Positions 16,609 through 40,354 of a DNA stretch of 64,000 bases are shown here, one piece after another. Location: contig NZ_LT907842.1 in the NCBI RefSeq assembly GCF_900215245.1, positions 6,200,001 to 6,264,000 on the forward strand. Direction: 5' to 3'. How positions within the stretch are numbered: the first letter of the stretch is position 1; the number at the start of each line of letters is the position of its first letter. Below the pieces are notes generated by a model. The model worked only from the letters and a program-made list of their open reading frames with translations. It was not told where the DNA came from and made no database searches. A program made the translations under genes and the position numbers. The stretch is from Pseudomonas fluorescens. GTDB lineage: Bacteria > Pseudomonadota > Gammaproteobacteria > Pseudomonadales > Pseudomonadaceae.

Positions 16609-19425
16609 ATGAGCTCGAGCAAGAACCACGCAGTGTCCTATATGGATGCAGACCACCCCACCCCGGCGCCCGCTGAGAGCGTCCTCGGCTTTGGCCCCTT
16701 TCTGTTACTGGCAAGACAGCACGTGTTGCTGCGCAACGGTGAGCCCGTGACCCTGGGTAGCCGTGCGCTGTACCTGTTGATTGCGCTGGCGACGCGCGCC
16801 GGCGAATTACTGGAAAAAGCCGAGCTGATCGCCTACGCATGGCCCAAGGTGGTCGTCGAGGAATGCAACCTGCGAGCGCAGATCGTCGCCCTGCGCCGGG
16901 CACTGGGCGACGATGGCAACTTCAGTTATATCGTCACCGTGCCGGGCCGAGGCTATCGCTTTGTGGCACCGGTCACCGTGCAAACCGCCAGCGAAGAAAC
17001 CCTGCCGGTCCCCTATGCCCGGGCCGAGGAACTCACACTGCCGCGGCTGCCCTGCGAAGTGATCGGCCGCGACACGCTGATCGCCAGCCTTGCCGACCAG
17101 TTGCTCAGCCAGCGCTTCGTCACCCTCACCGGCCCGGGCGGCATCGGCAAGACCACCGTCGCCCTGGCGGTGGCCCGCGAGTTGGCCCGTGCGTTCACGC
17201 TGGACACCTGCTTTGTCGACCTGGCGCCCGCCACCAGCGGGCAATGGGTAGCCGGCATACTCGCCAGCGCCCTGGGCATCCAGACGATCAGCGATAACCC
17301 GCTGCACAGCATCGCGGCGACCCTGGCCGACCGCCGTTTGCTGCTGGTGCTGGATAACTGCGAACACGTGTTGCCGGCCGCCGCCGACGCCGTGGAAACC
17401 CTGCTGAGCAGCGCCCCACAATGCTACGTGCTGACCACCAGCCGCGAACCGTTGCGCGCCGAAGGCGAACGGGTGCACGACCTGGCGCCGCTGCAAGTGC
17501 CTGACGAACAGGCGCGCCTGAGTGCCAGCGAAGCCTTGGCCTGGTCTGGTGTGCGCCTGTTTGTGGAACGCGTGCGCGCCCTCGACCCCGGCTTTGAGTT
17601 CAACGATGCTGATGTGTCGGCAGTCAGCGCCATCTGTCGCAAACTCGACAGCAATGCGCTGGCCATCGAGATCGCCGCCGCACGGGTACGCACCTTTGGC
17701 ATTCAGGATCTGGTCGGCCTGCTCGACGGCAGCTTTCGGCTGCAAATGACCGGCCGGCGCACTGCCCTCGCCCGTCACCGGTCCCTCAGCGCCACACTGG
17801 ACTGGACCTACTCGATGCTCAGTGGCGACGAACAGGCCATGTTGCGCCAACTGCCGGTGTTTACCGGCTGCTTCACCCTCGATGCGGTCAAGGCCATGAC
17901 GGCCGACAGCAGCCTGGACCCACGCAACGCCCTGCCGTTGCTCGAAAGCCTGATGGACAAGTCATTGCTGATCGCCGGTCAATCGCAGTTGCTCAAGCGC
18001 TATCGCCTGCTGGAAACCACCCGCGCCTATGCCCTGGAAAAACTCGCCGGACAGGGCGAGGTCAATGCCACCAGCCTGCGCCACGCGCGGTATGCCCTCG
18101 GCATGTTGCAGGAAGCCGGGCAGACCCTGGATGGCCTGTCGCCGGAAACCTGGGTCGCCCTCTACGGCCCCGAAAACAGCACCATCCGCTCGGCCCTGGA
18201 CTGGGCCTATTCACCCAACGGCGACCTGCCCCTGGCAATCGAACTGACCCTGGGCGGAGTGCCGCTGTGGCTGCGTCTGTCGCTGGTCAGCGAATGCCGC
18301 ACCTGGGTCGCCAAGGGCCTGGCGAGCAACGCCATCACCCCATTGCCGCTGCGCCAACGCATGTTGCTGCACACGGCTCTGGCCAGTGTGCTGATGCTGA
18401 CTTACGGCACCGGTGGGGAGATGCGCGAAGCCTGGCGCCAGGTTCGTGATGACGCCCGCGACCTCGGCGACGCCGAACACAAAATGCGCGCCTTGTGGGG
18501 GCTGTGGACCGACCGCTGTGGCTGCAACCAATATGCCGAAGCCTTGGAGCTGGCCGAGCGATATTTGGCCTTGAACAGCAGCGGTAACCAGCAATTGCTC
18601 GGCAAACGCATGCGCGCCGTGGCGCTGTTTCATATGGGCGACCTGCAGGGCGCGCGACAGAATATCGACGAAGCCCTCGGCTCACCGTCGGCACCGCGCT
18701 CGCACATCATCGACGTGCATTTTGACCAGCGCATCGCCGCCCGTTGCCTCAAGGCCAAGGTGCAACTGCTCGAAGGCGAGGTCGACCCGGCACTGCGCCT
18801 GATCGGCGCCTGCGTCGACGAAGCGGTCTCACTCGACCACCCGGCAACCCTTTGGTACACCCTGTGCCTGGGCGCGATTCCCCTGGCCCTGCTTACGTCC
18901 AACCTGCCGAAAATGCGTTACTACCTGGGCCTGCTGCAAGACAGCACCACCTGCCAGGACCTGCATATCTGGCGGCAATTTCGCCGCTGCTTCGAAAGCA
19001 TCCTGCTGATCCGCCAAGGTTCGCCGGAAGAAGGCGTGCCGCAATTGGGCGAGGCGCTGCACCATCTGCAAGGCCAGGGCGACAGCCAACTCCATAGCCT
19101 GCTGCGCTCTGAATACGCGCTGGGCCTGGCGCGGCTGGGCCTGGAGCAACTTGCCCTGGAAGTACTGGAAGACACACTGCAAGTGGCTGTCGGCCGCCAA
19201 GAGTGTTGGTTTGTACCGCAAATACTGCGGATCAAGGCGCAACTGACCCTGCGCCAGGGCGACTGCGGTTCAGAGGACAAGGCCAAGGTCCTGCTGCGCC
19301 AAGCCTGGGTGGATGCACAACTGGCGGGCGCGCACTTCTGGCGTGCGCAGATTGCAACCGACCTGGCACGCCTGCAGGAACCCAAATTGAGGATTGCTTC
19401 GTTACCTCGGTTTCAACATCGCTAG
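16609..19425 (+). CDS. Winged-helix transcriptional regulator with NB-ARC-like ATPase and helical repeats
   Basis: A protein of about 940 aa. An OmpR/PhoB-type winged helix lies roughly 27-121 residues from this start, including LLIALATRAGELLEK and the recognition-helix stretch VVEECNLRAQIVALRRAL, ending GRGYRFVAP. A STAND-type ATPase domain follows, with Walker A GPGGIGKTT and Walker B RLLLVLDNCEH, and the rest is helical TPR-like repeats. Such proteins are ligand- or partner-sensing transcription activators. I prefer ATG 16609, which has AAGGA seven bases upstream, over an in-frame ATG at 16570. It borders the type III secretion cluster, and its winged helix closely resembles that of the small regulator at 39893, so a role in controlling the island is likely but inferred. 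Confidence 0.88.
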   Translation: MSSSKNHAVSYMDADHPTPAPAESVLGFGPFLLLARQHVLLRNGEPVTLGSRALYLLIALATRAGELLEKAELIAYAWPKVVVEECNLRAQIVALRRALGDDGNFSYIVTVPGRGYRFVAPVTVQTASEETLPVPYARAEELTLPRLPCEVIGRDTLIASLADQLLSQRFVTLTGPGGIGKTTVALAVARELARAFTLDTCFVDLAPATSGQWVAGILASALGIQTISDNPLHSIAATLADRRLLLVLDNCEHVLPAAADAVETLLSSAPQCYVLTTSREPLRAEGERVHDLAPLQVPDEQARLSASEALAWSGVRLFVERVRALDPGFEFNDADVSAVSAICRKLDSNALAIEIAAARVRTFGIQDLVGLLDGSFRLQMTGRRTALARHRSLSATLDWTYSMLSGDEQAMLRQLPVFTGCFTLDAVKAMTADSSLDPRNALPLLESLMDKSLLIAGQSQLLKRYRLLETTRAYALEKLAGQGEVNATSLRHARYALGMLQEAGQTLDGLSPETWVALYGPENSTIRSALDWAYSPNGDLPLAIELTLGGVPLWLRLSLVSECRTWVAKGLASNAITPLPLRQRMLLHTALASVLMLTYGTGGEMREAWRQVRDDARDLGDAEHKMRALWGLWTDRCGCNQYAEALELAERYLALNSSGNQQLLGKRMRAVALFHMGDLQGARQNIDEALGSPSAPRSHIIDVHFDQRIAARCLKAKVQLLEGEVDPALRLIGACVDEAVSLDHPATLWYTLCLGAIPLALLTSNLPKMRYYLGLLQDSTTCQDLHIWRQFRRCFESILLIRQGSPEEGVPQLGEALHHLQGQGDSQLHSLLRSEYALGLARLGLEQLALEVLEDTLQVAVGRQECWFVPQILRIKAQLTLRQGDCGSEDKAKVLLRQAWVDAQLAGAHFWRAQIATDLARLQEPKLRIASLPRFQHR

Positions 19426-19504
19426 GGGTCTAAATTTGGAATGACTACTGTGGTGAGCGGGCTTCCCCCGCGCTGGTCTGCGAAGCAGCCCTGAAAGGCA
19501 CATT

Positions 19505-19530
19505 GATCGCCCCCCAAAAAGGAGGCGATC
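19505..19530. terminator. Hairpin between convergent genes
   Basis: GATCGCC pairs with GGCGATC across an A-rich loop, with two further G-C pairs after one mismatch. It lies between the regulator ending at 19425 and the convergent small gene ending at 19551. There is no T-tract, so it is only a tentative terminator. Confidence 0.4.
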
Positions 19531-19550
19531 TGTACATCTAAGAAACCCGT

Positions 19551-19823
19551 TTAGCGCGGATACTCAATTTCCATCGCCCTGGCTTCCAATACTTTCCAGA
19601 TTGCATAGCCGTCTTGCGCCAACAACGAAGCCGTTTGAAAAAAATGAGTCAGATCTTCGATATCGATTGTCTTGAGATCCATACACGCCAGACTTTCGAT
19701 AGCGTCTTTCGCGGCACGCATTCTCTCCCCTGCAACCGCGTGTAAGTCACAAAGAGATGCTTGAGAATTGATGAATAGCACCGGGTGTTCACTTGCACTG
19801 ATTTGAAGCGGGATATATGACAT
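19551..19823 (-). CDS. Small conserved Pseudomonas protein (DUF3077-like)
   Basis: A 90-aa protein, MSYIPLQISASEHPV..., with a helical body containing CDLHAVAGERMRAAKDA and a C-terminal helix ending EIEYPR. The pattern of an LH-x-A-G-x-R helix followed by a second helix with scattered leucines resembles the small Pseudomonas DUF3077/DUF6124 proteins; assignment is from memory. GGAG lies eight bases before the ATG at 19823. The base composition is more AT-rich than the flanking genes. Its neighbour downstream is the large regulator, convergent. No function is known. Confidence 0.65.
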   Translation of the reverse strand: MSYIPLQISASEHPVLFINSQASLCDLHAVAGERMRAAKDAIESLACMDLKTIDIEDLTHFFQTASLLAQDGYAIWKVLEARAMEIEYPR

Positions 19824-20193
19824 TGGCGATACTCCACTGAGGTAGGGGAGCTGCCACTTTTGCGACCAAACAAAGGGTGACAGCTGTACGCAGGTTGGTC
19901 GACCGGGCCTCAGTGATACCCGGCACACCCGAAGGCGTCCCGCGCACAGCTGCCATAACACGAAAGTGTGGGCGAAAAAAAACGCCGACTTTCGAAGGAT
20001 GGCGCCTGTGCGCACTGAGGTTTCAGGCGACCAAGCCTGAGTCGTTGAATTGGCAACGACGAGGCGAATCATAAGTGGCGTACCTGGCGGATGCAACTGA
20101 TGGCATCGAATGAAATTGAGTGACCTCGTAGATGATGAGCTACAACCTCCATCTGATCTTATTGGGGCTGCTGCGCAGCCCGGCGCGGGGCAA

Positions 20194-21480: not shown

Positions 21481-21483
21481 CAG

Positions 21484-22296
21484 CTACTCCATGCCTGCCA
21501 GGGTTTTGAGCAATTCGACGGTGCCGCGAAACGCCGCCAACTGGTCGAGCATCAACGGGATCAGGAAGCCGATATAGATCACCATCAGGATCGAAAAAAA
21601 CAGGTTTTTCACCGGCAACGACAAATCGAAAATGTGCAGGTTCGGCGCCATCCGCGACAGGTAGGCAAGCATCAAGTCAGTAATCAGCAGCGAGATCAGC
21701 AACGGGGAAACCATCAGCACGCCAACACGCATGATCTGGTCGAGGATCGACAGCACCGCCAGCAGTGCCGAGCTGGCAAATACCGGGGTAAACGCGGTCA
21801 CCGGCCACAACTGGTAGCTGTGGTAATAACCGTCGACCATCAGGATAAAACCGCCGGACATGAAAAACAGCGTGATCAGCATCACCGTCAACAGGGTCGA
21901 CATCACACTCGATTCGCCGGTTGAAAGCGGGTCCACCAACTGCGCCATGGTCGAGCCGCGCTGCAGGTCGATCAGCTCCCCCGCCACCTCTGCCGCCCAG
22001 AACGGAATGCCGAACAACAGCCCGATCAGAATGCCGATCAAAAACTCCTTGATCAGCAACCCGGCGATGAACACGCTGCCATGTTCGGGCATCGCGGTCA
22101 GTGCTTCGAACACCGGGAAGAACATCGGGATGGAAATGGCCACGGCCACACAGCCACGAATCATCCCGGTGAGGCCCAGGCGGTTGAAGGCCGGGGTAAT
22201 CACCACCACGCCCATGGCCCGGCAGGCGGCCAGCGAGGCGGCGCTGATCACCGGGTAGGCGACTTCCAGGAACTGCGCGGTAAGGCTGGCATCCAT
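21484..22296 (-). CDS. sctT: Type III secretion export apparatus protein SctT
   Basis: SctT (270 aa; HrcT/YscT/FliR family) is a polytopic inner-membrane protein of the export gate, assembling with SctR and SctS. Hydrophobic helices alternate with conserved short loops, for example AAEVAGELIDLQRGSTMAQLVDPLS, the hallmark region of the family. It lies six bases after sctS and three before sctU. Length is normal. The R-S-T-U gene order is that of all type III systems. Confidence 0.95.
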   Translation of the reverse strand: MDASLTAQFLEVAYPVISAASLAACRAMGVVVITPAFNRLGLTGMIRGCVAVAISIPMFFPVFEALTAMPEHGSVFIAGLLIKEFLIGILIGLLFGIPFWAAEVAGELIDLQRGSTMAQLVDPLSTGESSVMSTLLTVMLITLFFMSGGFILMVDGYYHSYQLWPVTAFTPVFASSALLAVLSILDQIMRVGVLMVSPLLISLLITDLMLAYLSRMAPNLHIFDLSLPVKNLFFSILMVIYIGFLIPLMLDQLAAFRGTVELLKTLAGME

Positions 22297-22302: not shown

Positions 22303-22572
22303 TCAGCGTGTCCACAGCGGGAAGTTGTCGAGCACCTGGCTCCCCAACTCCGCCACTTGCCCGGCCAAAACCGGGCCCAGGAACACGATGGTCAACAGGA
22401 CCGCCACCAGCTTCACCACCTGCGGCAGGATCTGGTCCTGGATCTGCGTCAGCGCCTGGAACAGCCCCACGCTCAAGCCCACGATAATCGCCACCCCCAG
22501 CGCGGGCGCCGAGAGCATCAGCACAGTCATCAGCGCCTGTTTCATCAATGACAGGAAAACATCCTGGCCCAT
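22303..22572 (-). CDS. sctS: Type III secretion export apparatus protein SctS
   Basis: SctS (89 aa; HrcS/YscS/FliQ family) forms a two-helix hairpin subunit of the export gate. Two long hydrophobic segments (residues about 15-38 and 52-75) are joined by the conserved LFQALTQIQDQILPQVVKL loop. The gene sits 10 bases after sctR and six before sctT in the leftward operon. Size and motif are standard. Confidence 0.95.
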   Translation of the reverse strand: MGQDVFLSLMKQALMTVLMLSAPALGVAIIVGLSVGLFQALTQIQDQILPQVVKLVAVLLTIVFLGPVLAGQVAELGSQVLDNFPLWTR

Positions 22573-22582: not shown

Positions 22583-23236
22583 TCAGCCGTAACTCAAAAT
22601 CAAACCGTGCATCAAGCGCGACCAGCCACTCAGCGACACGAATAAAAAAATCTTCAAGGGGATCGAAATCAAGTTTGGCGAGACCATCGACATGCCCATG
22701 GCCATCAGCACGTTGGACACCAGCAAGTCCACCACCAAAAACGGGATGTACAGCAAAAAGCCGATCTCGAAGGCGCGCGTGAGTTCCGAACTGACAAACG
22801 CCGGGATCAGCACTACCAGGTCGTCATCGCGCAGGTCGGCACGCGCCTCAGGCGACCAGATCGTTTCCGTAGCCTGCACAAAAAAGCCACGCTCGGACTC
22901 ATTCGCGAAGCGCTTGAGGTGCGCCTGCAACGGCGGGCGCAGGGCATCGCCCAAGTCCTTGAGTTGCTCCACATGCTCGATGTTGAGATCGCGGCCCTCC
23001 ACCTGCCGGTACATATCGCCGATCAAGGGCGTGGTCACGTACACCGAAAGAATCAGCGCAATGCCGTACAACACCAGGTTTGGCGGAGTCTGCTGCACGC
23101 CGAGGGCGTTGCGGATCAGGAACAACACCACCGAGATCTTCATGAAACCGGTGAGCGTCACCACCGCCAACGGGATCAACCCGATCGTCGCAACGACCAG
23201 GATAATCTCGATCAGATTCGGCTGATAACCGGTCAT
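22583..23236 (-). CDS. sctR: Type III secretion export apparatus protein SctR
   Basis: SctR (217 aa; HrcR/YscR/FliP family) is the core export-gate subunit. The conserved N-terminal helix with TGFMKISVVLFLIRNALGVQQ, the cytoplasmic middle region, and the C-terminal IPAFVSSELTRAFEIGFLLY and VSPNLISIPLKIFLF segments are all present. Its start overlaps the sctQ stop by four bases. Identification is secure. Confidence 0.96.
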   Translation of the reverse strand: MTGYQPNLIEIILVVATIGLIPLAVVTLTGFMKISVVLFLIRNALGVQQTPPNLVLYGIALILSVYVTTPLIGDMYRQVEGRDLNIEHVEQLKDLGDALRPPLQAHLKRFANESERGFFVQATETIWSPEARADLRDDDLVVLIPAFVSSELTRAFEIGFLLYIPFLVVDLLVSNVLMAMGMSMVSPNLISIPLKIFLFVSLSGWSRLMHGLILSYG

Positions 23237-23478
23237 GGAGTGGCAAAACTCAGCAGCCGCACACCCAGGCCATCACCGATTTTCACCAGTTGCCCCTGGC
23301 CGACGCGGCGCCCGTTAACCATCAGGTCGACGCTGTCCACGTCGGGCGTATTGAGCTGCAACAGGCTGCCCGCGCCCAGCTCACGCAATTGCGCCAGGGT
23401 CAGTTCCAGGCTGCCGACCTGGCACACCAGTTTGAGCGGCAGGTCATCCAGGGCCGCAGCAGCATCAACCTCAGTCAT
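23233..23478 (-). other. Candidate internally initiated SctQ-C product
   Basis: Inside sctQ an ATG at 23478 is preceded by GGAG with an eight-base spacer and would give an 81-aa protein, MTEVDAAAALDD..., that is exactly the C-terminal SpoA domain. Independent translation of such a short form from the sctQ gene is known for YscQ, SpaO and other SctQ proteins, where it joins the sorting platform. The in-frame position, size and Shine-Dalgarno match support the same here; it is not proven by sequence alone. Confidence 0.6.
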
Positions 23479-24234
23479 CGTGTTCTCCATGTCCAAAAGG
23501 GGCGTTGTCAATTCTTCCTGCACACGCAAGGCTTCACCGTGGTATTGGCAGCGGGCCTGCAGGCGCCCGTCCAGGTCGAGCAACAAGCCCGAGCCTGGCT
23601 CAAGCATCAGCACATCGCCGGGGCGCAAACTGCGCAGCTCACCCAAGGTCAGCGACTGCCGCCCGGCGACCAGCGCCAAGGTCTGGCGCAGGTTGGGCAA
23701 TGGGTCCGGTTCAGGCTGGGCATATTGGTCGAGCAACTGCGCGATGAGCACAGCGGCGCCTTCGCTCAGATCGAGGTGCGCGCTCATGGCCGGCTGATTG
23801 CCAAAGGTCAGCTCAAGCGACAGGCGCACGGCGTAATCTCGCTGCCCGTCGGTGGCCGCCAGGAGCTGCACCGCATGACCGAGCAGCGGCTCGAGGCGCT
23901 CGATCAAGTCGAGCACCGCCAATTCCAGTAACAACGCGCGTGGCAACGAGGGCAGCAACTGCACATCGAACTGCAGCGCCAACGGCACCAGCGCCTGCTC
24001 CACCGCAGCGGCCGAGAGGCGCAGGCGCGCCGGGGCGCGGCCGAGCAATAGCGGCACCTCGCACGGGCTACTGACGGTGGCGGTGGCGGCGGCCCAGCTC
24101 ACCCGCAGGTCTTGCCCGGCGCATCGGCCCTGCCAGGCGCGACGGCGTCGGTGCAGTTGGTTATGCAGGGTGAGCAAGGCCGGGTCGTAGTGCGTCAGCC
24201 ACGGCGCCAATGGAACGGCAAGGGCTGCGATCAT
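23233..24234 (-). CDS. sctQ: Type III secretion cytoplasmic ring/sorting-platform protein SctQ
   Basis: SctQ (333 aa; HrcQ/YscQ, related to FliN/FliM) builds the cytoplasmic sorting platform under the export gate. The C-terminal SpoA/SPOA domain is clear at about residues 262-330 (LKLVCQVGSLELTLAQLREL, then VDLMVNGRRVGQGQLVKIGDGLGVRL). The N-terminal part is leucine- and alanine-rich, as in the family. It overlaps both sctO (ATGA at the start) and sctR (ATGA at the end). An internal start for a C-terminal-only product is annotated separately. Confidence 0.92.
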   Translation of the reverse strand: MIAALAVPLAPWLTHYDPALLTLHNQLHRRRRAWQGRCAGQDLRVSWAAATATVSSPCEVPLLLGRAPARLRLSAAAVEQALVPLALQFDVQLLPSLPRALLLELAVLDLIERLEPLLGHAVQLLAATDGQRDYAVRLSLELTFGNQPAMSAHLDLSEGAAVLIAQLLDQYAQPEPDPLPNLRQTLALVAGRQSLTLGELRSLRPGDVLMLEPGSGLLLDLDGRLQARCQYHGEALRVQEELTTPLLDMENTMTEVDAAAALDDLPLKLVCQVGSLELTLAQLRELGAGSLLQLNTPDVDSVDLMVNGRRVGQGQLVKIGDGLGVRLLSFATP

Positions 24235-31885: not shown

Positions 31886-34020
31886 GAGGCAGACGCCAGG
31901 GAAGTGACGGAGGCCGTGGCAGGCGCACGGCGGTTCGAGATATCGGTAAGGCTGATGGTCACCAACGCTTGCAGGTTGTATTCGGTGGCCAGTTCGCGGA
32001 ACGACAGCACCGCCAGTTCCAGTTCGCCGCGCAGCACCAGCCGGCGCAGGCTGCGGCGCAGCTCCGGGTGCACCAGCAACACCGCACTGTTCACCTCACG
32101 GGTGCTGTCGCAGGCCTGGCGCAGTTGGGCGAGCAAGGCACGACTGAGGTCTTCGGGGATCAATTCGCGCTGGGCCTCCTGGCGGCGCAGGGACGCGCGC
32201 AGCTGGTCTTCCAGCCCCGGCGCCAGCACCAGCGCGCCGATCACGCGATTGCGGTCGGCGTAGTGATGGCTGATCTGCCGCGCCAATGCCGCACGCAAGT
32301 GTTCGGCCAGGCGCCCGGCGTCGGTTTCGCGCGCGCCCCACTCCACCATGGCTTCAAGCAAGGCGCGCTGGTTGCGGATCGACACGCCTTCACCGACCAG
32401 CAGGCGCAAGGTTTCGGCAACCCGCTGCAACGGCACCAGGCGCAACGCTTCTTTCACCAGTTCGCCGTAAGTGGCTTCGGTGCGCTCCAGCAACAGACGG
32501 GTTTCCTGGATGCCGAGGAAGTCGGCGGCATAGCGGCGCAAGCTACGTTCCAGCAAACCGCGCAACACCTCATCGGGCAGCAGGAAACCAATCCCGGCGT
32601 TGCGCAAGGTCTCTTCGTGCTGGCGCTCGATCCAATGCGCGCTGCGACCGTTGAGTGGCGAGTCGGCGAGCACGGTGGCGATGTCCAGCAGTTGCACATG
32701 CACCGGATCGTCCTGCAACAGCAGGCAGTTGATCGGCAGTTCGCCTTCGCTGACCGGCACACCTTCCAGGGAGACGCGGTAACTGCCCGGCGTGGCCTTG
32801 GCCTCCATGTAGATGCCCGGCACCGGCACGTCCACGCCGAGGTCGGTGCGCAGCTCGTGGCACAGCGCTTCGACGCGCTGGCGCAGCAACTGGCGAGGCG
32901 CGCTCTGGGACACGCCACTGCCGAGGGTCAGCAGCACGCGGGTCTCGGGGAGCAGGTTGTCATCCAGTTCGGCCTGGGCTTCGACCAGCGGTTCCGGCGT
33001 CTCGACCAACGTTTCCAACTCGCCTTGGGGCTGGCGGGTATGCCGGCGATACATCACGAACGCCGCACCGCCAAAGGCTGCGGACAACCCGAGAAACACC
33101 CAGGTGGGGAAGCCCGGCAACAGGCTGACGCCAATCATGATCAACGCGGTCAGGCCCAGTGCACGATAGCTGGCACCCAGTTGCTTGATGATCTCGCTGC
33201 CCAAGTCACCGGCTTCACCGTCGCTGTTGACGCGGGTGACCACGGTGCCTGCCGCCACGGAAATCAACAGCGCCGGAATCTGTGCGATCAGGCCGTCGCC
33301 CACTGTCAGCAGCGAATAGGTGTGCACCGCCACGCCGAAGGGCATGTCGCGTTCGATCATGCCGATCAGCATGCCACCCAGCAGGTTGACCGCGAGAATC
33401 ACCAGGCCGGCGATGGCATCGCCCTTGACGAACTTCATCGCGCCGTCCATTGCGCCGAACATCTGGCTTTCACGCTCCAGGCGCGAGCGCCGGCGGCGGG
33501 CTTCGGCCTGGTCGATATCGCCATTGCGCAGGTCGTTGTCGATGCTCATCTGTTTGCCGGGCATGGCATCCAGGGTGAAACGCGCGGCCACTTCCGCCAC
33601 ACGCTCGGCGCCCTTGGTGATGACCACGAACTGCGCCACGGTAATGATCAGGAACACCACCATACCGACCACCACCTGGCCGGCGATCACAAAGTCACCG
33701 AAGGCCTTGACGATATGCCCGGCATCGCCGTGCAGCAGGATCAAGCGCGTGGTGGTGATGGACAACGACAAGCGAAACAGCGTGCTGAGCAGGATCAGCG
33801 GCGGCAGCGCGGAGAACTCCACAGAGTGGCCGATGTAGAAGGCGACGATGAGAATCAGGATGCTCAAGGCAATGTTGAGGCCGATCAGCATGTCCACCAG
33901 GTAGGTGGGCAGCGGGATGATCATCATCACAATCGCCATCAGCATGAACGCGACGATGATCACGTCGGTGCGCTGCGCGGCCATACGCGCCAGGTTATTC
34001 AGGCGGTTGAGTGCACTCAT
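31882..34020 (-). CDS. sctV: Type III secretion major export apparatus protein SctV
   Basis: SctV (712 aa from ATG 34020) is the nonameric export gate (HrcV/YscV/FlhA). The N-terminal half has about eight membrane helices and the FHIPEP signature region AERVAEVAARFTLDAMPGKQ followed by MSIDNDLRNGDID; the C-terminal half is the cytoplasmic ring domain. I use ATG 34020, which forms an ATGA overlap with the upstream TPR gene; the frame extends 24 codons further upstream without a good ribosome-binding site. Identification is secure. Confidence 0.97.
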   Translation of the reverse strand: MSALNRLNNLARMAAQRTDVIIVAFMLMAIVMMIIPLPTYLVDMLIGLNIALSILILIVAFYIGHSVEFSALPPLILLSTLFRLSLSITTTRLILLHGDAGHIVKAFGDFVIAGQVVVGMVVFLIITVAQFVVITKGAERVAEVAARFTLDAMPGKQMSIDNDLRNGDIDQAEARRRRSRLERESQMFGAMDGAMKFVKGDAIAGLVILAVNLLGGMLIGMIERDMPFGVAVHTYSLLTVGDGLIAQIPALLISVAAGTVVTRVNSDGEAGDLGSEIIKQLGASYRALGLTALIMIGVSLLPGFPTWVFLGLSAAFGGAAFVMYRRHTRQPQGELETLVETPEPLVEAQAELDDNLLPETRVLLTLGSGVSQSAPRQLLRQRVEALCHELRTDLGVDVPVPGIYMEAKATPGSYRVSLEGVPVSEGELPINCLLLQDDPVHVQLLDIATVLADSPLNGRSAHWIERQHEETLRNAGIGFLLPDEVLRGLLERSLRRYAADFLGIQETRLLLERTEATYGELVKEALRLVPLQRVAETLRLLVGEGVSIRNQRALLEAMVEWGARETDAGRLAEHLRAALARQISHHYADRNRVIGALVLAPGLEDQLRASLRRQEAQRELIPEDLSRALLAQLRQACDSTREVNSAVLLVHPELRRSLRRLVLRGELELAVLSFRELATEYNLQALVTISLTDISNRRAPATASVTSLASAS

Positions 34021-34352
34021 GCGCCGGCCCTGCGTGCGGCCAGGTAGCGTTTGAAACACTGACGCGCGTCGTCCTTGCGCTCGCCGTACCACAGCGCACG
34101 AGCGCGCAGCAGCAACAGGCTGGCAGACTCGCCTTCGAGCGCCACCAGGCGGTCCAGCGCACTCAGCGCTCGGCTAGCGTCGCCGCTGTCGGTAAACGCC
34201 AGCACCAGCGAGCGCAGCAACACGCCGTCATGGGGCGCGACACTGACCGCAATCAGCAACATCACCAACGCACGTTGCGACTGGCCATTGCGCCGGTACA
34301 GCTCGCCAATGCCCTTGAGCAGTTGCACGGCGTCGTGGTTATCGCGGGCCAT
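34017..34352 (-). CDS. TPR protein next to SctV (SctY/Y4yS-like)
   Basis: A 111-aa helical protein containing about three tetratricopeptide-like repeats (QLLKGIGELYRRNGQSQRAL, SALDRLVALEGESASLLLLR). It sits directly upstream of sctV with a four-base overlap. A small TPR protein at this position is seen as YscY in Ysc systems, where it is a chaperone for YscX, and as Y4yS in rhizobia. I infer a similar chaperone role for the neighbouring product at 34352. The start overlaps the preceding stop by one base (TGATG). Confidence 0.7.
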   Translation of the reverse strand: MARDNHDAVQLLKGIGELYRRNGQSQRALVMLLIAVSVAPHDGVLLRSLVLAFTDSGDASRALSALDRLVALEGESASLLLLRARALWYGERKDDARQCFKRYLAARRAGA

Positions 34353-34708
34353 CAGGCATGTACCTCCGAGCGTTGCTGTTCGAGGCTGCGGCGCATGTCG
34401 ATCTCTTCGCCGATCAGCTCGTGGGCCAGTTGTTTAATGGCCGGCTCCGCGTCCAGCGTCGGCAGGATGTGTTCCATCACGTGTTCGAGCAGTTGCAGGG
34501 AACGGGCGCTGCCGAACAGCAACGAATCAACTCCGGCGGCGCTGGTCAGCGCTTCGAGGTCACTGCGCAGGGAACGCCGGGTCTGGGTTTTGCGCGTCTT
34601 GAGGACCGCTTCGAAGGCGGTGGCCTGGCGTGAATTGACCGGGCGAACAGCCTCGACCGGCGCGCTGCGCACATCACTGGGAATCAACGGGCGGGGTTCG
34701 ACTTTCAT
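34352..34708 (-). CDS. Type III secretion-linked protein, candidate SctX-like
   Basis: A 118-aa protein with a basic, proline-containing N-terminus (MKVEPRPLIPSDVRSAPVEA) and a helical C-terminal half (SLQLLEHVMEHILPTLDAEP, ELIGEEIDMRRSLEQQ). No motif gives a firm family. Its size, order X-Y-V with the next two genes, and non-signal N-terminus resemble YscX, an early substrate held by YscY. It overlaps both neighbours, so it is certainly part of the operon. The family assignment is inference from synteny. Confidence 0.6.
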   Translation of the reverse strand: MKVEPRPLIPSDVRSAPVEAVRPVNSRQATAFEAVLKTRKTQTRRSLRSDLEALTSAAGVDSLLFGSARSLQLLEHVMEHILPTLDAEPAIKQLAHELIGEEIDMRRSLEQQRSEVHA

Positions 34709-34851
34709 GCGTGGGCCTGCGTGAGGAAGTGGGCACGGTCAAGGGTGGCGATGTCGGTCGGCCAACCCCCACCGCGGCGGGCTGTACCGGCACCCGCGCA
34801 GGCCAGCCCGCGCCGACCGTTGGCGTGCGTGCATTGCATAGATCGACTCAT
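34705..34851 (-). CDS. Possible 48-aa protein coupled between sctD and the SctX-like gene
   Basis: An open frame of 48 codons starts in an ATGA overlap with the sctD stop (34848-34851) and ends in an ATGA overlap with the next gene (34705-34708). The product, MSRSMQCTHANGRRGLACAG..., is basic, Gly/Ala-rich and has no recognisable motif. The perfect coupling at both ends is the only evidence for translation. It could be a small export component or simply a translational bridge. Confidence 0.42.
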   Translation of the reverse strand: MSRSMQCTHANGRRGLACAGAGTARRGGGWPTDIATLDRAHFLTQAHA

Positions 34852-35735
34852 AAGGTGAAGGTAAAGCGTTCCTCGCCACGGGCGAGAATCACTTGGTTGT
34901 TCTCGATGCGCTCCAGCACCCAGTTGTCCGCGAGCGCTGCGCCGGGGTACAGGCGTTTGCCGCTGTCGTTGATCACATAGGGGTTGGTGCCGAACCATAC
35001 GGCCTGGAAACGCACCCGTGGCCGCGCGGCATCGGCACGCACGGTGACGCGGGGGTTGAGCACGATCTGCTGGCCATAACGCTGGTCGAAGGCTTGTTGC
35101 AGCGCCAGCCATTGCGGTTTTTGTGACTGTTCGAAACTGCCGACGGCACTGAGCTGACCATTACTGCTGCTGACCTTTATCGCATCCAGATGCGCCGCTT
35201 GCAGTTGCTGCTCCAGCCAGGCCTTGGCCTGCGCGTGGGACGGCGTTTGCACAACCGGAGCCTCGACGATGGCTGCCGAGCGCGTCGGCGGCGAGTCATT
35301 GCGAAAAGCCAGCGCTGCGGCGCAGAGAAACAGCAGCGCGATTGCGACAATCCACGGCGCAACTGTACGGCGTGCACGGGCAGGTTTTTCCGCCCCTTCA
35401 GGCACTGCCAAGCGCACGCCTACCGTGCCGATACGCAGCTGCAAAGGCAGGCGCGCGCGATGGCCGCTGCCCTGGGGAATGCACACATTCGCGCCGAACA
35501 GCACGTCGCCACCCAACGCTTCAATCGCGACCTGGCCGCCTTCAAAAAAACGCAGGCGCAGGTGCAGGCCGGCAATTGCGGGGTCGCTAAGTACCAGGTC
35601 GGCCGCGAGGTCCGCGCCAAGGGTGTAGACAGGCTGGTCGAGCACCAGGGAACTGCCCTGGTGCAAACCGCTGGTCACCGTCAGGGTCGGTGCACCCATA
35701 CCGGCGACCGGGCCCATGGAAATCAAGGCTGTCAT
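34848..35735 (-). CDS. sctD: Type III secretion inner-membrane ring protein SctD
   Basis: A 295-aa bitopic membrane protein. The N-terminal cytoplasmic part is FHA-like (LTVTSGLHQGSSLVLDQPVY, TLGADLAADLVLSDPAIAGL), then one membrane segment (IVAIALLFLCAAALAF near residue 130) and a periplasmic part with ring-building repeats. This is the layout of SctD (YscD, HrpQ, PrgH), which binds SctK in the cytosol and SctC outside. I chose ATG 35735, preceded by AGGGGG, over in-frame upstream starts at 35759 and TTG 35774. It is the first large gene after the small leader gene at 35836. Confidence 0.85.
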   Translation of the reverse strand: MTALISMGPVAGMGAPTLTVTSGLHQGSSLVLDQPVYTLGADLAADLVLSDPAIAGLHLRLRFFEGGQVAIEALGGDVLFGANVCIPQGSGHRARLPLQLRIGTVGVRLAVPEGAEKPARARRTVAPWIVAIALLFLCAAALAFRNDSPPTRSAAIVEAPVVQTPSHAQAKAWLEQQLQAAHLDAIKVSSSNGQLSAVGSFEQSQKPQWLALQQAFDQRYGQQIVLNPRVTVRADAARPRVRFQAVWFGTNPYVINDSGKRLYPGAALADNWVLERIENNQVILARGEERFTFTL

Positions 35736-35835: not shown

Positions 35836-35997
35836 TCAGTTCTGCGGACGCTGTTTGGTGGCGTCGAGTTCCGCTTTTTTGGCGGTGCTGATTTCAGTGA
35901 TTTTTGCCGACTTTTCGATAGCCATGTTGAAGGTCGCTTCCATCTTCGCGATAGCGTCGTCGGCGCCGCCTGCTTTTACTGGTGGGACATCAGCCAT
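35836..35997 (-). CDS. Small 53-aa leader gene of the secretion operon, needle/pilin candidate
   Basis: A 53-codon frame with a near-perfect ribosome-binding site (AAGGAGATGAAC) before the ATG. The protein, MADVPPVKAGGADDAIAKME then ATFNMAIEKSAKITEISTAK and a Lys/Gln tail, has no signal peptide and would form one long amphipathic helix. Small helical subunits without signal peptides at the head of a type III operon are typical of needle or pilus subunits (HrpA, NopA, SctF), but I see no diagnostic motif. It is the promoter-proximal gene, 100 bases upstream of sctD, consistent with a product needed in large amounts. Confidence 0.68.
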   Translation of the reverse strand: MADVPPVKAGGADDAIAKMEATFNMAIEKSAKITEISTAKKAELDATKQRPQN

Positions 35998-36606
35998 GTT
36001 CATCTCCTTGCAGTGATAGGGAAGTTATTCAGTTGCGCATCAGCACGCTGAAAGTATGCAAACCGGATGAACGCCCAAAACGTCAGACAGTGAGCTTTCG
36101 AACCGTCGTTGGTTTGCATGGGGGCCATACTACTCACGATCAAAACGCCTTCGCTGTGAAAGCTTGTGAAACGTTTCAGATACCGGGTGTGAACGGTTTG
36201 GCTCAACCTGGCGTTGAGAAAAACTCATCCCCGTTTCGCCGTGGAACTTTTAACGAAAAGCCCAAACACAGCCAATACCCAGTGTTTACAGGGGATTGCG
36301 CACCTGAACTCGAATATGGCTGAACACTAAGCCGCTCTTTCCCACCCTATAAACGAGCGGTTCATCACGGCATCTGCATTTTTTTCGTATCGACTTCACA
36401 TTTTTCACTACTAGCCTTTTGCCCAACTTCGCAGATATTTCCATTTGTAACAAAAGCGACTTGCTCATCGCGTTTGATAGCTCGGCGTGAGCGACCTTCA
36501 ATGCCCGCGAACAACTAGTGATGTGCGCGTAATTAGTACAGTTGCACTAATAGCCGAAAGCCTTAGTGCGCGGGCTTTAATATATGAAACAACTTCCAGG
36601 TGTTCT
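35998..36606. promoter_or_regulatory. Divergent control region of the type III secretion island
   Basis: This AT-richer 609-base gap separates the leftward secretion operon from the rightward translocator gene. Visible elements: inverted 9-bp arms ATGCAAACC at 36056-36064 and GGTTTGCAT at 36111-36119; a 12-bp palindrome TGAAACGTTTCA at 36167-36178; a cluster of TTAGTG-like half-sites at 36515-36520, 36533-36538, 36545-36550 (inverted) and 36563-36568; and a TTTAATATAT -10-like box at 36577-36586. No GGAACC...CCAC hrp box was found. The half-sites are candidates for binding by the winged-helix regulators that flank the island. Confidence 0.55.
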
Positions 36607-39600
36607 ATGACTGCGATTCCGAGTGGCCTTGATCCGGCCGAAAGCAAGGGCACGGACGGCCCCCAGAAAAAATTCGAAACCGCGCTGTTCACGGCCGTCA
36701 ACCAACCTGCCTTCGAACCCTCCAAAATCCGTGGCCCGTCGATTCCCCTGCCCTATCAGAATGTGCAGGCACCGGCGAACAACAGCATCACCTACACACC
36801 GCTGGGCAGCGACAAGCCGGTCACCCTCAAGCAAAGCGATAACCCGCGTCTCTACCAGACGCTGGTTGACCAGTACAACGCCCAGCAGAGCGATGCGAAC
36901 CTGGAAAAGAACCTCGCCGCGAGCAAAGCGGCCGGCTACATCGAGGCCGACGCCAGCACCGTGGCGCCAGGCCTGGGCAACTACAAGGCGATCGGCAGCA
37001 CGACGGAACTGGGCCCCGGGCTGATCCGCTACGAAACCTCTTCCGGCGACAGAATTGTGGTCAGCCAGAAAGAAACCCCGGGGCTGTTCGCCCAGGTCAG
37101 CGGCGACTCGGCCAAGCTGTTTGCAATCAATGCCAGCCAGGCTGAAGGCTACCGTTTGGCCAGCCCCAACGAGACCCTGGACCCGGCCGCCAACGTCGGC
37201 CCTCCCGAAGAAGTCGGGCCCGGCCTGATTCGCTATAACACCGCCTCCGGCGACAAGGTGATCGTGTCCCAGGACATTACTCCCGCGCTCTATGACCAAA
37301 TGGCCAAGTTGTACGCCGGGACCACCGGCGCGGCGGGTGCTGCAGACACCTCGTGGATCGACAACTCGTCGTTCGGTGTGTCCGGCGCCAGGGACTGGGA
37401 CACCCTCACCGGCAACACCAGCGGCACGCCCACCAAAGAAGAACTGGACCTGAACCGCCCCCGCGCCGCCGCGCAATTGCTCTCGCAGAATTGGGACGCG
37501 TGGGGCCTGCACGGTGCGCCCATCGACTTCGCCAACCCGCCCACCACCTTGCCACCCGAAGCCCAGGCGGTACTCAAGTACGTAGCCAGCAGCCCAAACC
37601 TGATGGCGGCGCTGGACAGCGGCGGTCGCGGTAAAGCCGACAATGTCATCACCCACGCCGACGTCGACCACTTCATCAGCAACACCAAGAGCGACATCGG
37701 TGCCGCGTCGAAAGCCTATGGCACATTCATGGGCAGCCATCCAGGCGACCTGGCCAAAGCCAACGCCAAGTCCGCCGCCATCGTGATGGCTAACGAAAGC
37801 CTGGTGGCCAGCTCCGGCACCGCCATGCGCCCGGGCGATCAACAGCGCAGCAACGACGGCATGATTCGCCCCGACAACCTCGAGGCACTGGGCAGCGATT
37901 CGGCCCTGAGCAACGAGCTGACGGGTGCCGCCGCCATGTGGTCGAAACCCGGCATGTTCCACGCCCTCGAAACCGGCGGCGACAACCCGGCCACCGGCAA
38001 ATCCGACGCCGTTGGCACCCGCGACAATATCGGTGCCTGGCTGGAAAAACAGGCGCCGAAAACCGACAGCGACACCCTGACCTTCCTTGACAGCGCCGCC
38101 ACCCGCGATGCCGTCGCCGGTGTGGACACCTCCACGCTGACCGCCGACATCCTGGCCAACCCGCAAAACTACACGGGCGCACAGAAAGCCGCGGTGCTGG
38201 TGCAACTGAGCGATGCGCAGACGCGCCTGTTGGTCAGCGACTATGTGCCCAACGCAGGCTTGATGGACAAGTACACCTCGCCTCACTACGGCCTGAACCC
38301 CAACGAAGACAAGATCAAGGCGCAGTTGCAAAGCGGCATTGAGACCCTGTCGGCGGACCCGGACGTCCAGGCGTTCCTGCAGAACAACCGTGGCCCTGCG
38401 CTGAGCGATATCGTCGGCAGCGATCCGACCCTGAAAGTCGCCATGCAAAATTACTTTGCCGATGGCATTGAGTCAGGCAAAAACCTCAACGATAACCTCA
38501 ACGCCAAGGACCAGAACGGCAAGCAGATCGACATGGGCATTGGCCTGCAAAACGCTGCCAACGACGCGACCATCGCCAACCTGGCGCTGGGCGGCAATGG
38601 CCATGTCGACTTGACCAAAGTCGCCGCCAACGCCGGGCAAAGCGACGCGATCCAAAGCTACTACAAGAACGAACTGGTGACCGGCAAAGCCTTCACCGAC
38701 GCCGTGGCCGCCGGCATGGACCCGACCGTCGCAGCCAGCAGTTTCGCCGCAAGCACCGCGTCGGCCCAGGCGTTCCTCGGTGACAAGGCGACGGCGGATG
38801 AGGCGGCGACCTTGCAGGTCAACTTCAACGAAAACCTCAGCGATGCGCTGCTCGGTGGTGCCACCACCGATACGCTTAACGTCACGCTCGGCGATGGCAA
38901 CGGCAACTTTGACGAAGCCAAAGTCACCGCCGCGATCAACGATGCCCAGCAAAAAGATCCGCAGATGTTCGTGACCTCCGACGGCGGCAAGATTGACCCG
39001 GCGCAAGTGGTCTCGATGCTGCGTTCGGTATGGGACATCGGCCGCCAGGGCAACAAGATCGCCGACGCCTTGCCGAAAGCCATCGAAGGCATGAAGTTCG
39101 GCGATGTCAGCCCGGCATTCAAACAGGGCCTGCTGCACATCGGCAGTGCGGTGTTGATGAGCGGCGTGCTGATGGCGCGTTCGGCCAGCGGCAGCACCAC
39201 CCCGGTGGCGGATGCCAACCGCGTGTCGGCCGGCTTGCAATTTGCCGGGCTGTTGCTCGAAGGCGGTACCAAATACGCCAAGGAAGCCGGCTATGGCATC
39301 ACGTGGGTCAACCGCCCGGACGGTGGCACCCTCGGCGATTTCCCCGGCAAGGTGCCGGTGGGCAAGGGCCCGCTGTCACCGCAGCAGATCGCCAATATCG
39401 GCGCGGCGGGCAAGGTCATCGGGTCGGCGGGCGGCATCATCGGCGGCGTAATCGGGATTATCGGCGGTGTCGACTCGCTGAAAAAAGGTGATTACCTCAC
39501 CGGCAGTTTTTCGGTCGCCACCGGTGTACTCGGCACGGGCGCAGCCGTGGCGGGCCTGGTGGAAGCCGGTGCCGGTTTGTATGGCGCCACGGAAATCGGC

Positions 39601-39822
39601 GCGGTGGCGGGCACCCTGAGCGGCATTCTCGGCGGCGCCACGGCGATTCTCGGCGGTATCGGAAGTGCGTTTTTGCCGTTCGCGCTGGCCGATGCCCACG
39701 GCAAGGCGCAAGACGCATTTTACGGGCAGCTGGCCCCGGTGCTGCAGCAATACGGCTTGACCGGCGGCCCGACCATGGAGGGCGATTACCCGGCAGACCC
39801 GATCCCTGCCATCAACACCTGA
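36607..39822 (+). CDS. HrpF/NolX-like type III translocator
   Basis: A 1071-aa protein without signal peptide. Three imperfect repeats start at residues 61, 140 and 208 (ITYTPLGSDKPVTLKQ, IRYETSSGDRIVVSQ, IRYNTASGDKVIVSQ). A central region contains GKADNVITHADVDHFI and MRPGDQQRSNDGMIRPDNLE, and the last 150 residues are Gly/Ala-rich hydrophobic segments (SAGGIIGGVIGIIGGV, GTLSGILGGATAILGG) able to insert in membranes. N-terminal repeats, EF-hand-like DN-x-I-T motifs and C-terminal hydrophobic stretches match the Xanthomonas HrpF and rhizobial NolX/NopX translocators. I chose ATG 36607, next to AGGTG. It diverges from the secretion operon. Effector translocation is the inferred role. Confidence 0.82.
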   Translation: MTAIPSGLDPAESKGTDGPQKKFETALFTAVNQPAFEPSKIRGPSIPLPYQNVQAPANNSITYTPLGSDKPVTLKQSDNPRLYQTLVDQYNAQQSDANLEKNLAASKAAGYIEADASTVAPGLGNYKAIGSTTELGPGLIRYETSSGDRIVVSQKETPGLFAQVSGDSAKLFAINASQAEGYRLASPNETLDPAANVGPPEEVGPGLIRYNTASGDKVIVSQDITPALYDQMAKLYAGTTGAAGAADTSWIDNSSFGVSGARDWDTLTGNTSGTPTKEELDLNRPRAAAQLLSQNWDAWGLHGAPIDFANPPTTLPPEAQAVLKYVASSPNLMAALDSGGRGKADNVITHADVDHFISNTKSDIGAASKAYGTFMGSHPGDLAKANAKSAAIVMANESLVASSGTAMRPGDQQRSNDGMIRPDNLEALGSDSALSNELTGAAAMWSKPGMFHALETGGDNPATGKSDAVGTRDNIGAWLEKQAPKTDSDTLTFLDSAATRDAVAGVDTSTLTADILANPQNYTGAQKAAVLVQLSDAQTRLLVSDYVPNAGLMDKYTSPHYGLNPNEDKIKAQLQSGIETLSADPDVQAFLQNNRGPALSDIVGSDPTLKVAMQNYFADGIESGKNLNDNLNAKDQNGKQIDMGIGLQNAANDATIANLALGGNGHVDLTKVAANAGQSDAIQSYYKNELVTGKAFTDAVAAGMDPTVAASSFAASTASAQAFLGDKATADEAATLQVNFNENLSDALLGGATTDTLNVTLGDGNGNFDEAKVTAAINDAQQKDPQMFVTSDGGKIDPAQVVSMLRSVWDIGRQGNKIADALPKAIEGMKFGDVSPAFKQGLLHIGSAVLMSGVLMARSASGSTTPVADANRVSAGLQFAGLLLEGGTKYAKEAGYGITWVNRPDGGTLGDFPGKVPVGKGPLSPQQIANIGAAGKVIGSAGGIIGGVIGIIGGVDSLKKGDYLTGSFSVATGVLGTGAAVAGLVEAGAGLYGATEIGAVAGTLSGILGGATAILGGIGSAFLPFALADAHGKAQDAFYGQLAPVLQQYGLTGGPTMEGDYPADPIPAINT

Positions 39823-39832
39823 CCCTTCCCGG

Positions 39833-39865
39833 CAGCTCGGGGTGAAAAGGAGCCACGCCGAGCTG
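39833..39865 (+). other. Hairpin between translocator and small regulator
   Basis: CAGCTCGG and CCGAGCTG form an 8-bp perfect stem around a 17-base loop just after the translocator stop. There is no T-tract. It may reduce read-through into, or protect the mRNA before, the winged-helix gene that starts 28 bases later. Confidence 0.4.
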
Positions 39866-39892
39866 TGATTCCCACGCATAAAGGTAAAAGAC

Positions 39893-40354
39893 ATGACGTA
39901 TTCGACTCGCAGCCACCTCACCGATGACGCCTCGTTCGAGATCCACTTCGGCTCGTTCCAACTGCTGCCCCAACGTCATCTGCTGCTCAAGCACGGGCAA
40001 CCCGTGGCGCTGGGCAGCCGCGCCCTGACCCTGCTGATCGCCCTCGCCTCACGGCCTGGGGAACTGCTGGAAAAAAACCGATTGCTCGGTATCGCCTGGC
40101 CGAAAACGGTGGTGGAGGAATGCAACCTGCGCACACAGATCAAGACCCTGCGCCGCGCACTCGGCGACGACGAGTCTGTCTACATCGCCACGGCGCCCGG
40201 CCAGGGTTACCGCTTTGTCGCCCCCACCTGGGTCCAACGTGCGCACGTCGACGTGGCGAAGGAGCCTGTCGTACTCGGGGTCTATGGCTGCCGACACTGC
40301 CGAGGTGCCGGGATGATGCCGCAGTTTGCTCAGATAAGCCTGCAGAACAGCTGA
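39893..40354 (+). CDS. Single-domain winged-helix transcriptional regulator
   Basis: A 153-aa protein that is essentially one OmpR/PhoB-type winged helix (residues about 14-118: LLIALASRPGELLEKNRLLG, VVEECNLRTQIKTLRRALGD, GQGYRFVAP) with a short Cys-containing tail (YGCRHCRGAG). There is no receiver, ATPase or membrane domain. The recognition-helix region is almost identical to that of the large regulator at 16609, so both may read the same DNA site. AAAGGTAAAAGAC gives a good ribosome-binding site. It follows the translocator on the same strand and is likely coexpressed. The tail could be a truncated remnant of a longer protein. Confidence 0.85.
   Translation: MTYSTRSHLTDDASFEIHFGSFQLLPQRHLLLKHGQPVALGSRALTLLIALASRPGELLEKNRLLGIAWPKTVVEECNLRTQIKTLRRALGDDESVYIATAPGQGYRFVAPTWVQRAHVDVAKEPVVLGVYGCRHCRGAGMMPQFAQISLQNS

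Follow-up and report, generated by a model that had tools for sequence, protein, structure and literature searches.

A complete Rhc subgroup II type III secretion island in Pseudomonas fluorescens, with HrpK-related proteins and a TTCAC box as parts of a candidate regulon

We describe a 25.2-kb island that carries a complete Rhc-type type III secretion system (T3SS) in a 64,000-nucleotide stretch of Pseudomonas fluorescens DNA (assembly GCF_900215245.1, contig NZ_LT907842.1, positions 6,200,001 to 6,264,000), referred to here as the window. Besides the T3SS core, the island encodes a split secretin, an HrpK/HrpF-type translocator and HilA-like regulators. The host genome is a single contig of 6.51 Mb, in which the window lies at 6.20-6.26 Mb. 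All analyses reported here were computational.

Boundaries and gene content of the island

The island occupies window positions 16042-41210, with an MFS transporter gene on one side and a DyP-type peroxidase gene on the other. Its borders were set by comparison with a relative, G132, which keeps both flanks (85-88% identical) and has 34 bp replacing the island; the same flanks enclose the system in G017 and G121. The G+C content of the island is unremarkable, no tRNA genes were found in the window, and no direct repeat longer than 10 bp was present in the two stretches compared at the island ends.

Profile and profile-profile matches place the secretion genes in two minus-strand runs. The initial annotation had reported these as leftward runs of SctC1-I-J-K-L-N-O-Q-R-S-T-U and D-V-C2, with a split secretin and an HrpF-like translocator, and all were found at that place, with the correction that a TPR lipoprotein gene of opposite orientation (29303-30067, plus strand) stands between the two runs. 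Read leftward, the first run consists of a 53-residue gene, sctD, a 118-residue gene, a SctY-like gene, sctV, C2 and a CpaD-like lipoprotein gene. The second, beyond the divergent TPR lipoprotein gene, consists of C1, an 80-residue gene and sctI, J, K, L, N, O, Q, R, S, T and U. The gene of a HilA-like regulator lies next to the U end; at the D end are the genes of an HrpK/HrpF protein and of a short HilA-like DNA-binding protein. Between SctD and SctV there are two genes (118 and 111 residues, the latter SctY-like) and not the three first counted, an extra 135-residue open reading frame (ORF) overlapping sctD. The 53-residue gene (35836-35997, minus strand) before sctD had been overlooked, and the start first assigned to the locus, 16609, is the second ATG of the HilA-like ORF. 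The features are as follows (Pfam and other profile matches with E values unless bits are given).

16042-41210, no strand: the island, from the joined flanks 14616-16041 and 41211-43832 of G132 with 34 bp between them
16570-19425, plus: HilA-like regulator with OmpR/PhoB-type winged helix (PF00486, 1.1e-11), AAA ATPase (PF13191, 4.8e-8) and TPR; like PSPPH_2539 in architecture, as that protein is described in the available text of PMC3574062
20434-21480, minus: SctU (PF01312, 2.7e-74)
21484-22296, minus: SctT (PF01311, 1.6e-48)
22303-22572, minus: SctS (PF01313, 3.2e-22)
22583-23236, minus: SctR (PF00813, 6.2e-60; TIGR01102 above cut-off)
23233-24234, minus: SctQ (PF01052, 1.1e-23; TIGR02551 above cut-off)
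24231-24677, minus: SctO, by a weak profile match (PF07321, 1.3e-4, 22.5 bits against a cut-off of 28.8) and conserved position
24694-26016, minus: SctN ATPase (PF00006, 7e-83; PF18269, 6e-25)
26013-26597, minus: SctL (PF06635, 1.2e-16; start inferred)
26594-27208, minus: SctK/NolU (hhalign against NolU, E 3e-14; no Pfam match at 0.01)
27205-27987, minus: SctJ lipoprotein (PF01514, 3.2e-27; TIGR02544, 216.9 bits; start inferred)
27992-28426, minus: SctI/NolB-like inner rod (hhalign against NolB, E 1.6e-4, and against Hrp2 SctI, E 2.4e-4)
28436-28678, minus: 80-residue conserved protein, needle or NopC-like candidate (homologues in the R. johnstonii and Halomonas RhcII systems; no SctF or PDB match)
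28691-29257, minus: SctC1, N0-domain fragment of a T3SS secretin (PF21304, 2.2e-6; TIGR02516, N-terminal part only; TTG start inferred)
29303-30067, plus: divergent TPR lipoprotein, pilotin candidate, PSPPH_2523-like by position (TPR Pfam matches; lipobox-pattern cysteine)
30211-30591, minus: CpaD-like lipoprotein (PF09476, 7.8e-6, below cut-off; hhalign against the NGR234a CpaD-family protein, E 1.4e-4, and the Bradyrhizobium one, 0.0075)
30605-31885, minus: SctC2, secretin with Tad-type N-terminal domain (PF00263, 6.8e-43; PF13629, 9.7e-20)
31882-34020, minus: SctV (PF00771, 2.2e-206)
34017-34352, minus: SctY-like TPR chaperone (NF052415, 8.8e-18, 64.8 bits against a cut-off of 70; hhalign against AscY, E 2.9e-13)
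34352-34708, minus: 118-residue protein at the SctX position (by position; SctX sequence link not found)
34848-35735, minus: SctD with FHA, YscD ring and Y4YQ C-terminal domains (PF23893, 1.1e-16; PF21934, 1.3e-10; start inferred)
35836-35997, minus: 53-residue protein at the NopA position, a candidate pilin or needle (found in Halomonas, pNGR234b and, at 72% identity, R. johnstonii)
36607-39822, plus: HrpK/HrpF-type translocator-like protein with N-terminal repeats (PF16937, 1.4e-44 and, in a second search, 1.3e-44)
39893-40354, plus: stand-alone HilA-like DNA-binding domain (PF00486, 1.1e-13; short form also in fluorescens-clade relatives)

Profile or profile-profile matches thus name SctU, T, S, R, Q, N, L, J, V, D, C2, C1 (the N0 fragment) and the HrpK/HrpF translocator. 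Chance is excluded as the source of these matches because the SctV match reaches E 2e-206 and the gene order recurs in named relatives and in Rhizobium johnstonii. The sctO and sctQ genes overlap by 4 bp with no SctP (HrpP/YscP) gene between them, as is typical of the Rhc family. The 118-residue protein found no profile support as SctX (hhalign E 0.4 and 0.14; best PDB match an unrelated protein at E 0.05). The regulator at 16570-19425 has the HilA-type composition of an OmpR-type winged helix and C-terminal TPR; its TPR match is weak (E 0.008), and the HilA/EilA model matches its DNA-binding part alone, far under the cut-off. The 153-residue regulator at the other end was considered as a truncated HilA and rejected, the short form being conserved in fluorescens-clade relatives.

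The division of the secretin into an N0 fragment (C1) and a Tad-like C2 is a hallmark of the Rhc family. A 507-residue SctC1 ORF is an artefact, mostly antisense to the TPR lipoprotein gene, and the true C1 has about 190 residues. The Tad origin of C2 is taken from PMC3459982, the available text of which derives RhcC2 from a Tad locus; here the secretin was compared by domain profiles. Three other matches to C2 in the host genome were set aside; the two that are listed cover its C-terminal part only. The accessible part of PMC4311626 describes a CpaD-like gene of Mesorhizobium and names Y4yS as a candidate pilotin; y4yS is missing from Rhc subgroup II (PMC4500985). Subgroup II was thus said to have no pilotin, and the divergent TPR lipoprotein is a candidate for that role: a lipobox-pattern cysteine was present in 23 of 23 homologues examined, including those of pNGR234b, R. 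johnstonii, Halomonas and Klebsiella, when a segment including residues upstream of the start was scanned. A specific homology to TadD or Y4yS was rejected, as the matches to a TPR protein at the y4yS place (E 1.8e-5) and to an ORF close to the most similar other secretin of the genome (4e-6) may come from generic TPR repeats.

The 53-residue gene is unannotated, and its product is identical across many fluorescens-clade relatives. In Rhc-I systems the pilin gene nopA is located before rhcD, according to the available text of PMC3973906, and pNGR234a has a 71-residue ORF before rhcD that we took as nopA by position. By analogy of position and size, and by its conservation, the 53-residue protein is a candidate filament subunit. 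The 80-residue gene before sctI would be an alternative candidate by synteny; identification of its product as SctF had no profile support. In the accessible text of PMC3973906, the Rhc-II and Rhc-III systems of several sinorhizobia are described as having none of the known NopA, NopB and NopC proteins or effectors.

Family placement and comparison with known systems

Phylogenies of SctV and SctN were built carefully (33 rows each), and those of SctR and SctJ as quick trees; rows absent from the loci and SctN and SctU pieces that were too short were excluded. The window's SctV falls inside the Rhc clade (98/97), within subgroup II (98/98) and a Pseudomonas clade (100/100); the respective values for SctN are 99/96, 100/100 and 99/98. 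Subgroup II in these trees includes pNGR234b, R. johnstonii, Halomonas and a Klebsiella plasmid, and the Pseudomonas clade includes P. cerasi, P. tremae, P. amygdali and P. viridiflava. SctR (94) and SctJ (87) recover the RhcII grouping as well, with RhcI and RhcIII unresolved in the former and with Klebsiella and RhcIII outside in the latter. RhcIII is a very long branch in the SctV tree (4.07), which makes its placement unsure. Constraining the window's SctV to group with the Hrp1 rows was rejected (approximately unbiased test, p 3e-5), the core proteins lie outside both the Hrc-Hrp1 clade and Ysc (one Ysc row in the tree), and the hrp-box pattern as used has no match in the window. The affinity to Rhc and to P. 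syringae T3SS-2 that had been proposed from gene order is therefore borne out, placement inside Hrp1 or Ysc having been named beforehand as the contrary outcome. Three further traits are those of Rhc subgroup II, namely an opposite-facing TPR gene between C1 and C2, a YscY-like gene before sctV and an HrpK-like gene.

The system was initially called the only one in the window, which holds for the window and not for the genome: a second, Hrp1-type T3SS lies at 3.05 Mb, and its non-flagellar SctV falls inside the Hrp1 clade. A second SctV is over the cut-off in nine of ten named RhcII-positive Pseudomonas genomes and partial in the tenth. The system is also less unusual in fluorescent Pseudomonas than had been implied. 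An RhcC2 secretin is present in 40 of 398 Pseudomonas genomes, the host included, and 21 loci in the secretin scan were at 71-96% identity. Because Rhizobiales-type T3SSs in plant-beneficial Pseudomonas have already been published (PMC8780523, in its available text), the locus is a new member of an already reported T3SS family. That source lists Hrc1 plus Rhizobiales T3SSs for P. yamanorum LBUM636, BBc6R8 and LBUM920, which by this strain listing share genus, T3SS family and Hrc1 co-occurrence with the host; the system of the window is itself present in a further strain of that species, IPO3780.

The closest described counterpart is P. syringae T3SS-2 (HrcII; PSPPH_2515-2540), for which the accessible text of Gazi et al. 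2012 (PMC3574062) gives a split secretin, the HrpK-like PSPPH_2540, the regulator PSPPH_2539 and no hrp boxes. Alike in the window are the split secretin, the opposite-facing TPR gene between C1 and C2, the SctD-x-Y-V order, a regulator with PhoB-like, AAA and TPR parts, an HrpK-like gene and the want of hrp boxes. This likeness is one of gene order, domains and trees with P. cerasi, P. tremae and P. amygdali. The window's core proteins are 39-94% identical to those of four P. syringae-group loci (L022, L026, L027 and L030). The window differs in its extra short regulator at 39893 and in that its HrpK place holds the PF16937 protein, whereas the closest relative of the syringae-group island gene is unlinked.

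The pNGR234b T3SS-II of Sinorhizobium fredii (RhcII) has the core genes, the C1/C2 split, CpaD-like and TPR lipoproteins and a 53-residue-type gene before sctD in common with the window, but its core lies in two opposed blocks and it has no HilA-like regulator, HrpK match (in a 41-kb stretch) or box of the kind described below. Rhc-I systems (pNGR234a, Bradyrhizobium) have the NolB-NolT-NolU-NolV-SctN order, in agreement with the rhizobial order first noted here, together with a Tad-type C2, a CpaD-family gene and a small pilin gene (NopA) before rhcD; they differ in TtsI/tts-box control and NopX (PMC3973906, in the part available) and are more distant in the trees. The Halomonas sp. PA16-9 plasmid (L041) carries an RhcII T3SS with a 53-residue homologue; its C2, SctD and SctU align in two pieces, with SctU apart, and the frames may be interrupted.

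HrpK-related proteins and the TTCAC box

The island protein at 36607-39822 has the PF16937 domain and predicted C-terminal hydrophobic segments of an HrpK/HrpF-type translocator. A search with it found its N-terminal repeats again in further large proteins, eight of which were examined closely (open frames of 1,084-1,340 codons). The host's unlinked member (5.199-5.203 Mb, ~1 Mb from the island) has 1,115 residues, with several repeats and hydrophobic C-terminal segments, and at E 0.01 it matches no Pfam family. The genes next to sctD in P. cerasi, P. amygdali (where there is one internal stop) and P. viridiflava encode proteins 63-65% identical to it. A family member (E 1e-15 or better) occurs in 37 of 398 Pseudomonas genomes, all 37 being among the 40 RhcC2-positive genomes and none among the 358 RhcC2-negative ones (Fisher p 5e-49, uncorrected for kinship); the family and secretin scans covered 398 genomes each and were taken as the same set, since the listed handles coincide. 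Outside Pseudomonas, a member lies ~11 kb from the RhcII secretin in Halomonas PA16-9; at E 0.001 none is present in the plasmid records of R. johnstonii, Klebsiella and pNGR234b. When the repeat region was searched against a protein database, 72 proteins annotated as HrpK-domain or hypothetical were returned, the organisms named being Pseudomonas and, once, Halomonas.

Positions of HrpK-related genes vary among the loci. The HrpK gene is missing from its place beside sctD in G017 (L093), L013, L014, L017 and L031; G017 and the genomes of L013, L014 and L015 have a 51-52% relative at another location, and the best in the L017 genome is at 31%. G391 has an extra HrpK-related gene between the HilA-like gene and sctU (L147, 6414-9941), where the window has merely a ~90-residue ORF (about 19551-19823). 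A 1,075-residue protein of the host clade (G000:C1:1391752-1393800; L207) is 27% identical by BLAST to the C-terminal two thirds of the unlinked member, with no Pfam match and no exact box within a 12-kb stretch.

Comparison of upstream regions revealed TTCAC repeats at 10-bp spacing, both next to the island operon and upstream of the unlinked HrpK-related gene. The exact pattern is TTCACAANNTTTCRC, which accompanies the island operon and the majority of the dispersed genes, and the island contains one match and one variant:

36156-36170, minus: box TTCACAAGCTTTCAC, facing the 53-residue gene and sctD (match to the exact pattern)
36395-36408, plus: variant box TTCACATTTTTCAC, facing hrpK (pattern comparison)

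OmpR/PhoB-type winged helices usually target tandem 10-11-bp repeats, so the box repeats fit the HilA-like regulators of the island. Of five Pseudomonas loci checked, four have the box at -172 to -177 before the 53-residue gene. G001 carries 10-bp variants in tandem, at -151 and -161, the best agreeing at 11 of 13 positions, which 4 of 200 random stretches also reach.

The exact pattern was found in 28 of 30 RhcII-positive genome handles (71 sites) and in none of 30 RhcII-negative genomes, which had been picked from the flank search prior to any box count. The reversed pattern, used as a control, gave 7 matches in 7 of the 60 handles, 2 of them RhcII-positive. Because 11 of the 30 box-negative genomes carry another non-flagellar SctV over the cut-off, yet have neither box nor family member, the box tracks RhcII and not T3SSs generally. 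G057 and G223 are apparently one assembly (equal coordinates), and dropping three G223 sites reduced the 71 to 68. Of these, 62 adjoin an island operon or a family gene. A script tied 55 boxes to genes by distance in either orientation, and seven were assigned by hand: four at a 154-residue-type gene (G228, G391, G405 and G150; confirmed), two in island intergenic regions (G057:3199639 and G062:C16:187243) and one inside the 5' part of a family ORF of uncertain start (G057:1358116; the G344 box at 3894172 is similar).

Three exact boxes occur in the host genome, the first at the island and the second 73 bp before the unlinked HrpK-related gene, in the same orientation. The third is 93 bp from the start of a 154-residue gene, the last 44 residues of which are 75% identical to the 53-residue protein. 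An HrpK1 domain in this gene was rejected (best Pfam match E 0.11, to another family; BLAST segments against HrpK, E 0.017 and 0.044). A box of this kind stands upstream of an HrpK-related gene of 998-1,042 residues in G017, G062 and G353. Two exact boxes in P. viridiflava (L198, 6463; L199, 6870) lie ~530 bp before ORFs, which are possible regulon members or chance neighbours.

A candidate regulon and its alternatives

Taken together, these findings make it likely that the island encodes a complete Rhc subgroup II injectisome whose HilA-like regulator, box, HrpK-related proteins and 53-residue protein form one system. The export gate would consist of SctRSTU and SctV, the motor of SctN together with L, K and O, and the inner rings of SctD and J. 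C1 would join SctD to the Tad-derived C2, probably aided by the CpaD-like and TPR lipoproteins. The HilA-like regulator most likely binds the 10-bp direct repeats (TTCAC-N5-TTCRC) ~175 bp before the 53-residue gene and sctD, and would address the same box at HrpK-related genes, both inside and outside the island. Together with the 53-residue protein, the HrpK-related proteins would then be exported, giving an outer filament and a translocation pore.

The distribution of box and family further suggests, at the level of sequence, a dedicated regulon and candidate substrates for the Pseudomonas RhcII T3SS. On balance we lean towards the view that these T3SSs have their own regulon, in which a HilA-like protein works through TTCAC direct repeats to activate the injectisome, the 53-residue pilin and the dispersed, RhcII-exclusive HrpK-related secreted proteins. 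No earlier report of the dispersed family and box was found, as judged mostly by titles and abstract openings in a search that excluded subscription literature. The large RhcII-linked HrpK-related family, the box and the unannotated, conserved 53-residue gene are apparently new.

Several observations weigh against a common regulon. Six of the 68 boxes lie by genes not tied to the system (G061:C27, G413, G237:C99, G186:C55, G062:C29 and G062:C31), and the orientation of the box towards its gene is variable. The third host box points away from the 154-residue gene, at a GNAT acetyltransferase ORF 78 bp away; the 154-residue gene is favoured as its target because four other genomes keep box and gene together. 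In the third RhcII-positive clade tested, G001 and G425 have no exact box and the single site of G413 is unexplained, and boxes sought in R. johnstonii, Halomonas and pNGR234b were rejected, scoring no higher than the null. The 53-residue gene was not found in the Klebsiella locus, and neither it nor the 80-residue gene has a product matching a needle or PDB protein. The RhcII-positive genomes G035, G341 and G420 have no family member (the G420 secretin has a stop), and the 40 RhcII-positive genomes are related, so that the counts are not independent. Finally, T3SS-2 mutants of one P. syringae pv. syringae strain had no phenotype in the accessible text of PMC4551802 and PMC6518948, the former covering plant, worm and insect tests.

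That kinship also speaks for an ordinary RhcII T3SS as in P. syringae, with HrpK-related proteins and box as co-inherited passengers under no shared regulation. The syringae-group genomes checked have their family member on the island beside sctD, and the mixed box orientation would fit as well. We nevertheless regard co-inheritance as unlikely, since in the window's clade (G000, G017, G228 and G391) the family member lies 0.92-1.13 Mb from the secretin and still keeps a box 72-73 bp from its start. G132, with its empty site and 85-88% identical flanks, lies outside the 40 RhcC2-positive genomes and has neither an HrpK match nor the box.

It is very improbable that the HrpK-related proteins and the box belong to the co-resident Hrp1 system. 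The second SctV of most named RhcII-positive genomes would allow it, and HrpK was first known from Hrp1 systems (PMC3574062, available text), but the 11 RhcII-negative genomes with a non-flagellar SctV and the unmatched hrp-box pattern speak against it. Least credible is a decaying remnant without function, for which the silent P. syringae mutant could be cited; in the window the core genes are uninterrupted ORFs, the 53-residue protein is identical in many relatives, and SctR is 100% identical to those of G017 and G228.

If the regulon proposed here is real, it would supply the first candidate substrates and an operator for a system lacking a known regulator target, effector and phenotype, which about one in ten of the sampled Pseudomonas genomes carries. 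The shared box appears to link the T3SS to large secreted-type proteins encoded up to ~1 Mb away, a first handle on what it exports. Together with an RhcII-exclusive protein family, it turns a function on which the P. syringae mutant is silent (PMC4551802, in the text available) into testable questions, namely the condition under which the system fires and the proteins exported, and it can be used to search other Pseudomonas genomes for further substrates. The initial description of a distinct host-interaction machine goes beyond this evidence.

Near the island, window positions 40449-40954, between the short regulator and the DyP peroxidase gene, contain several similar segments of ~30-110 bp, also matched by a repeat in another genome (L103); they are probably repetitive extragenic palindrome-type repeats. 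A 1,390-residue ORF with a YncE-like beta-propeller match occupies a lower-G+C stretch at 45123-49295.

In a search of the literature by title, no paper was found on the T3SS of the Klebsiella plasmids. At least two further Klebsiella plasmid records are among the secretin matches listed (60 of 995). The Klebsiella pneumoniae plasmid pAP855 (L040; NZ_CP035384.1, 15-34 kb), which is from blood and typed as conjugative (IncFIB/IncFII/IncHI1B), carries a near-complete RhcII-type T3SS with an HrpK-like gene.

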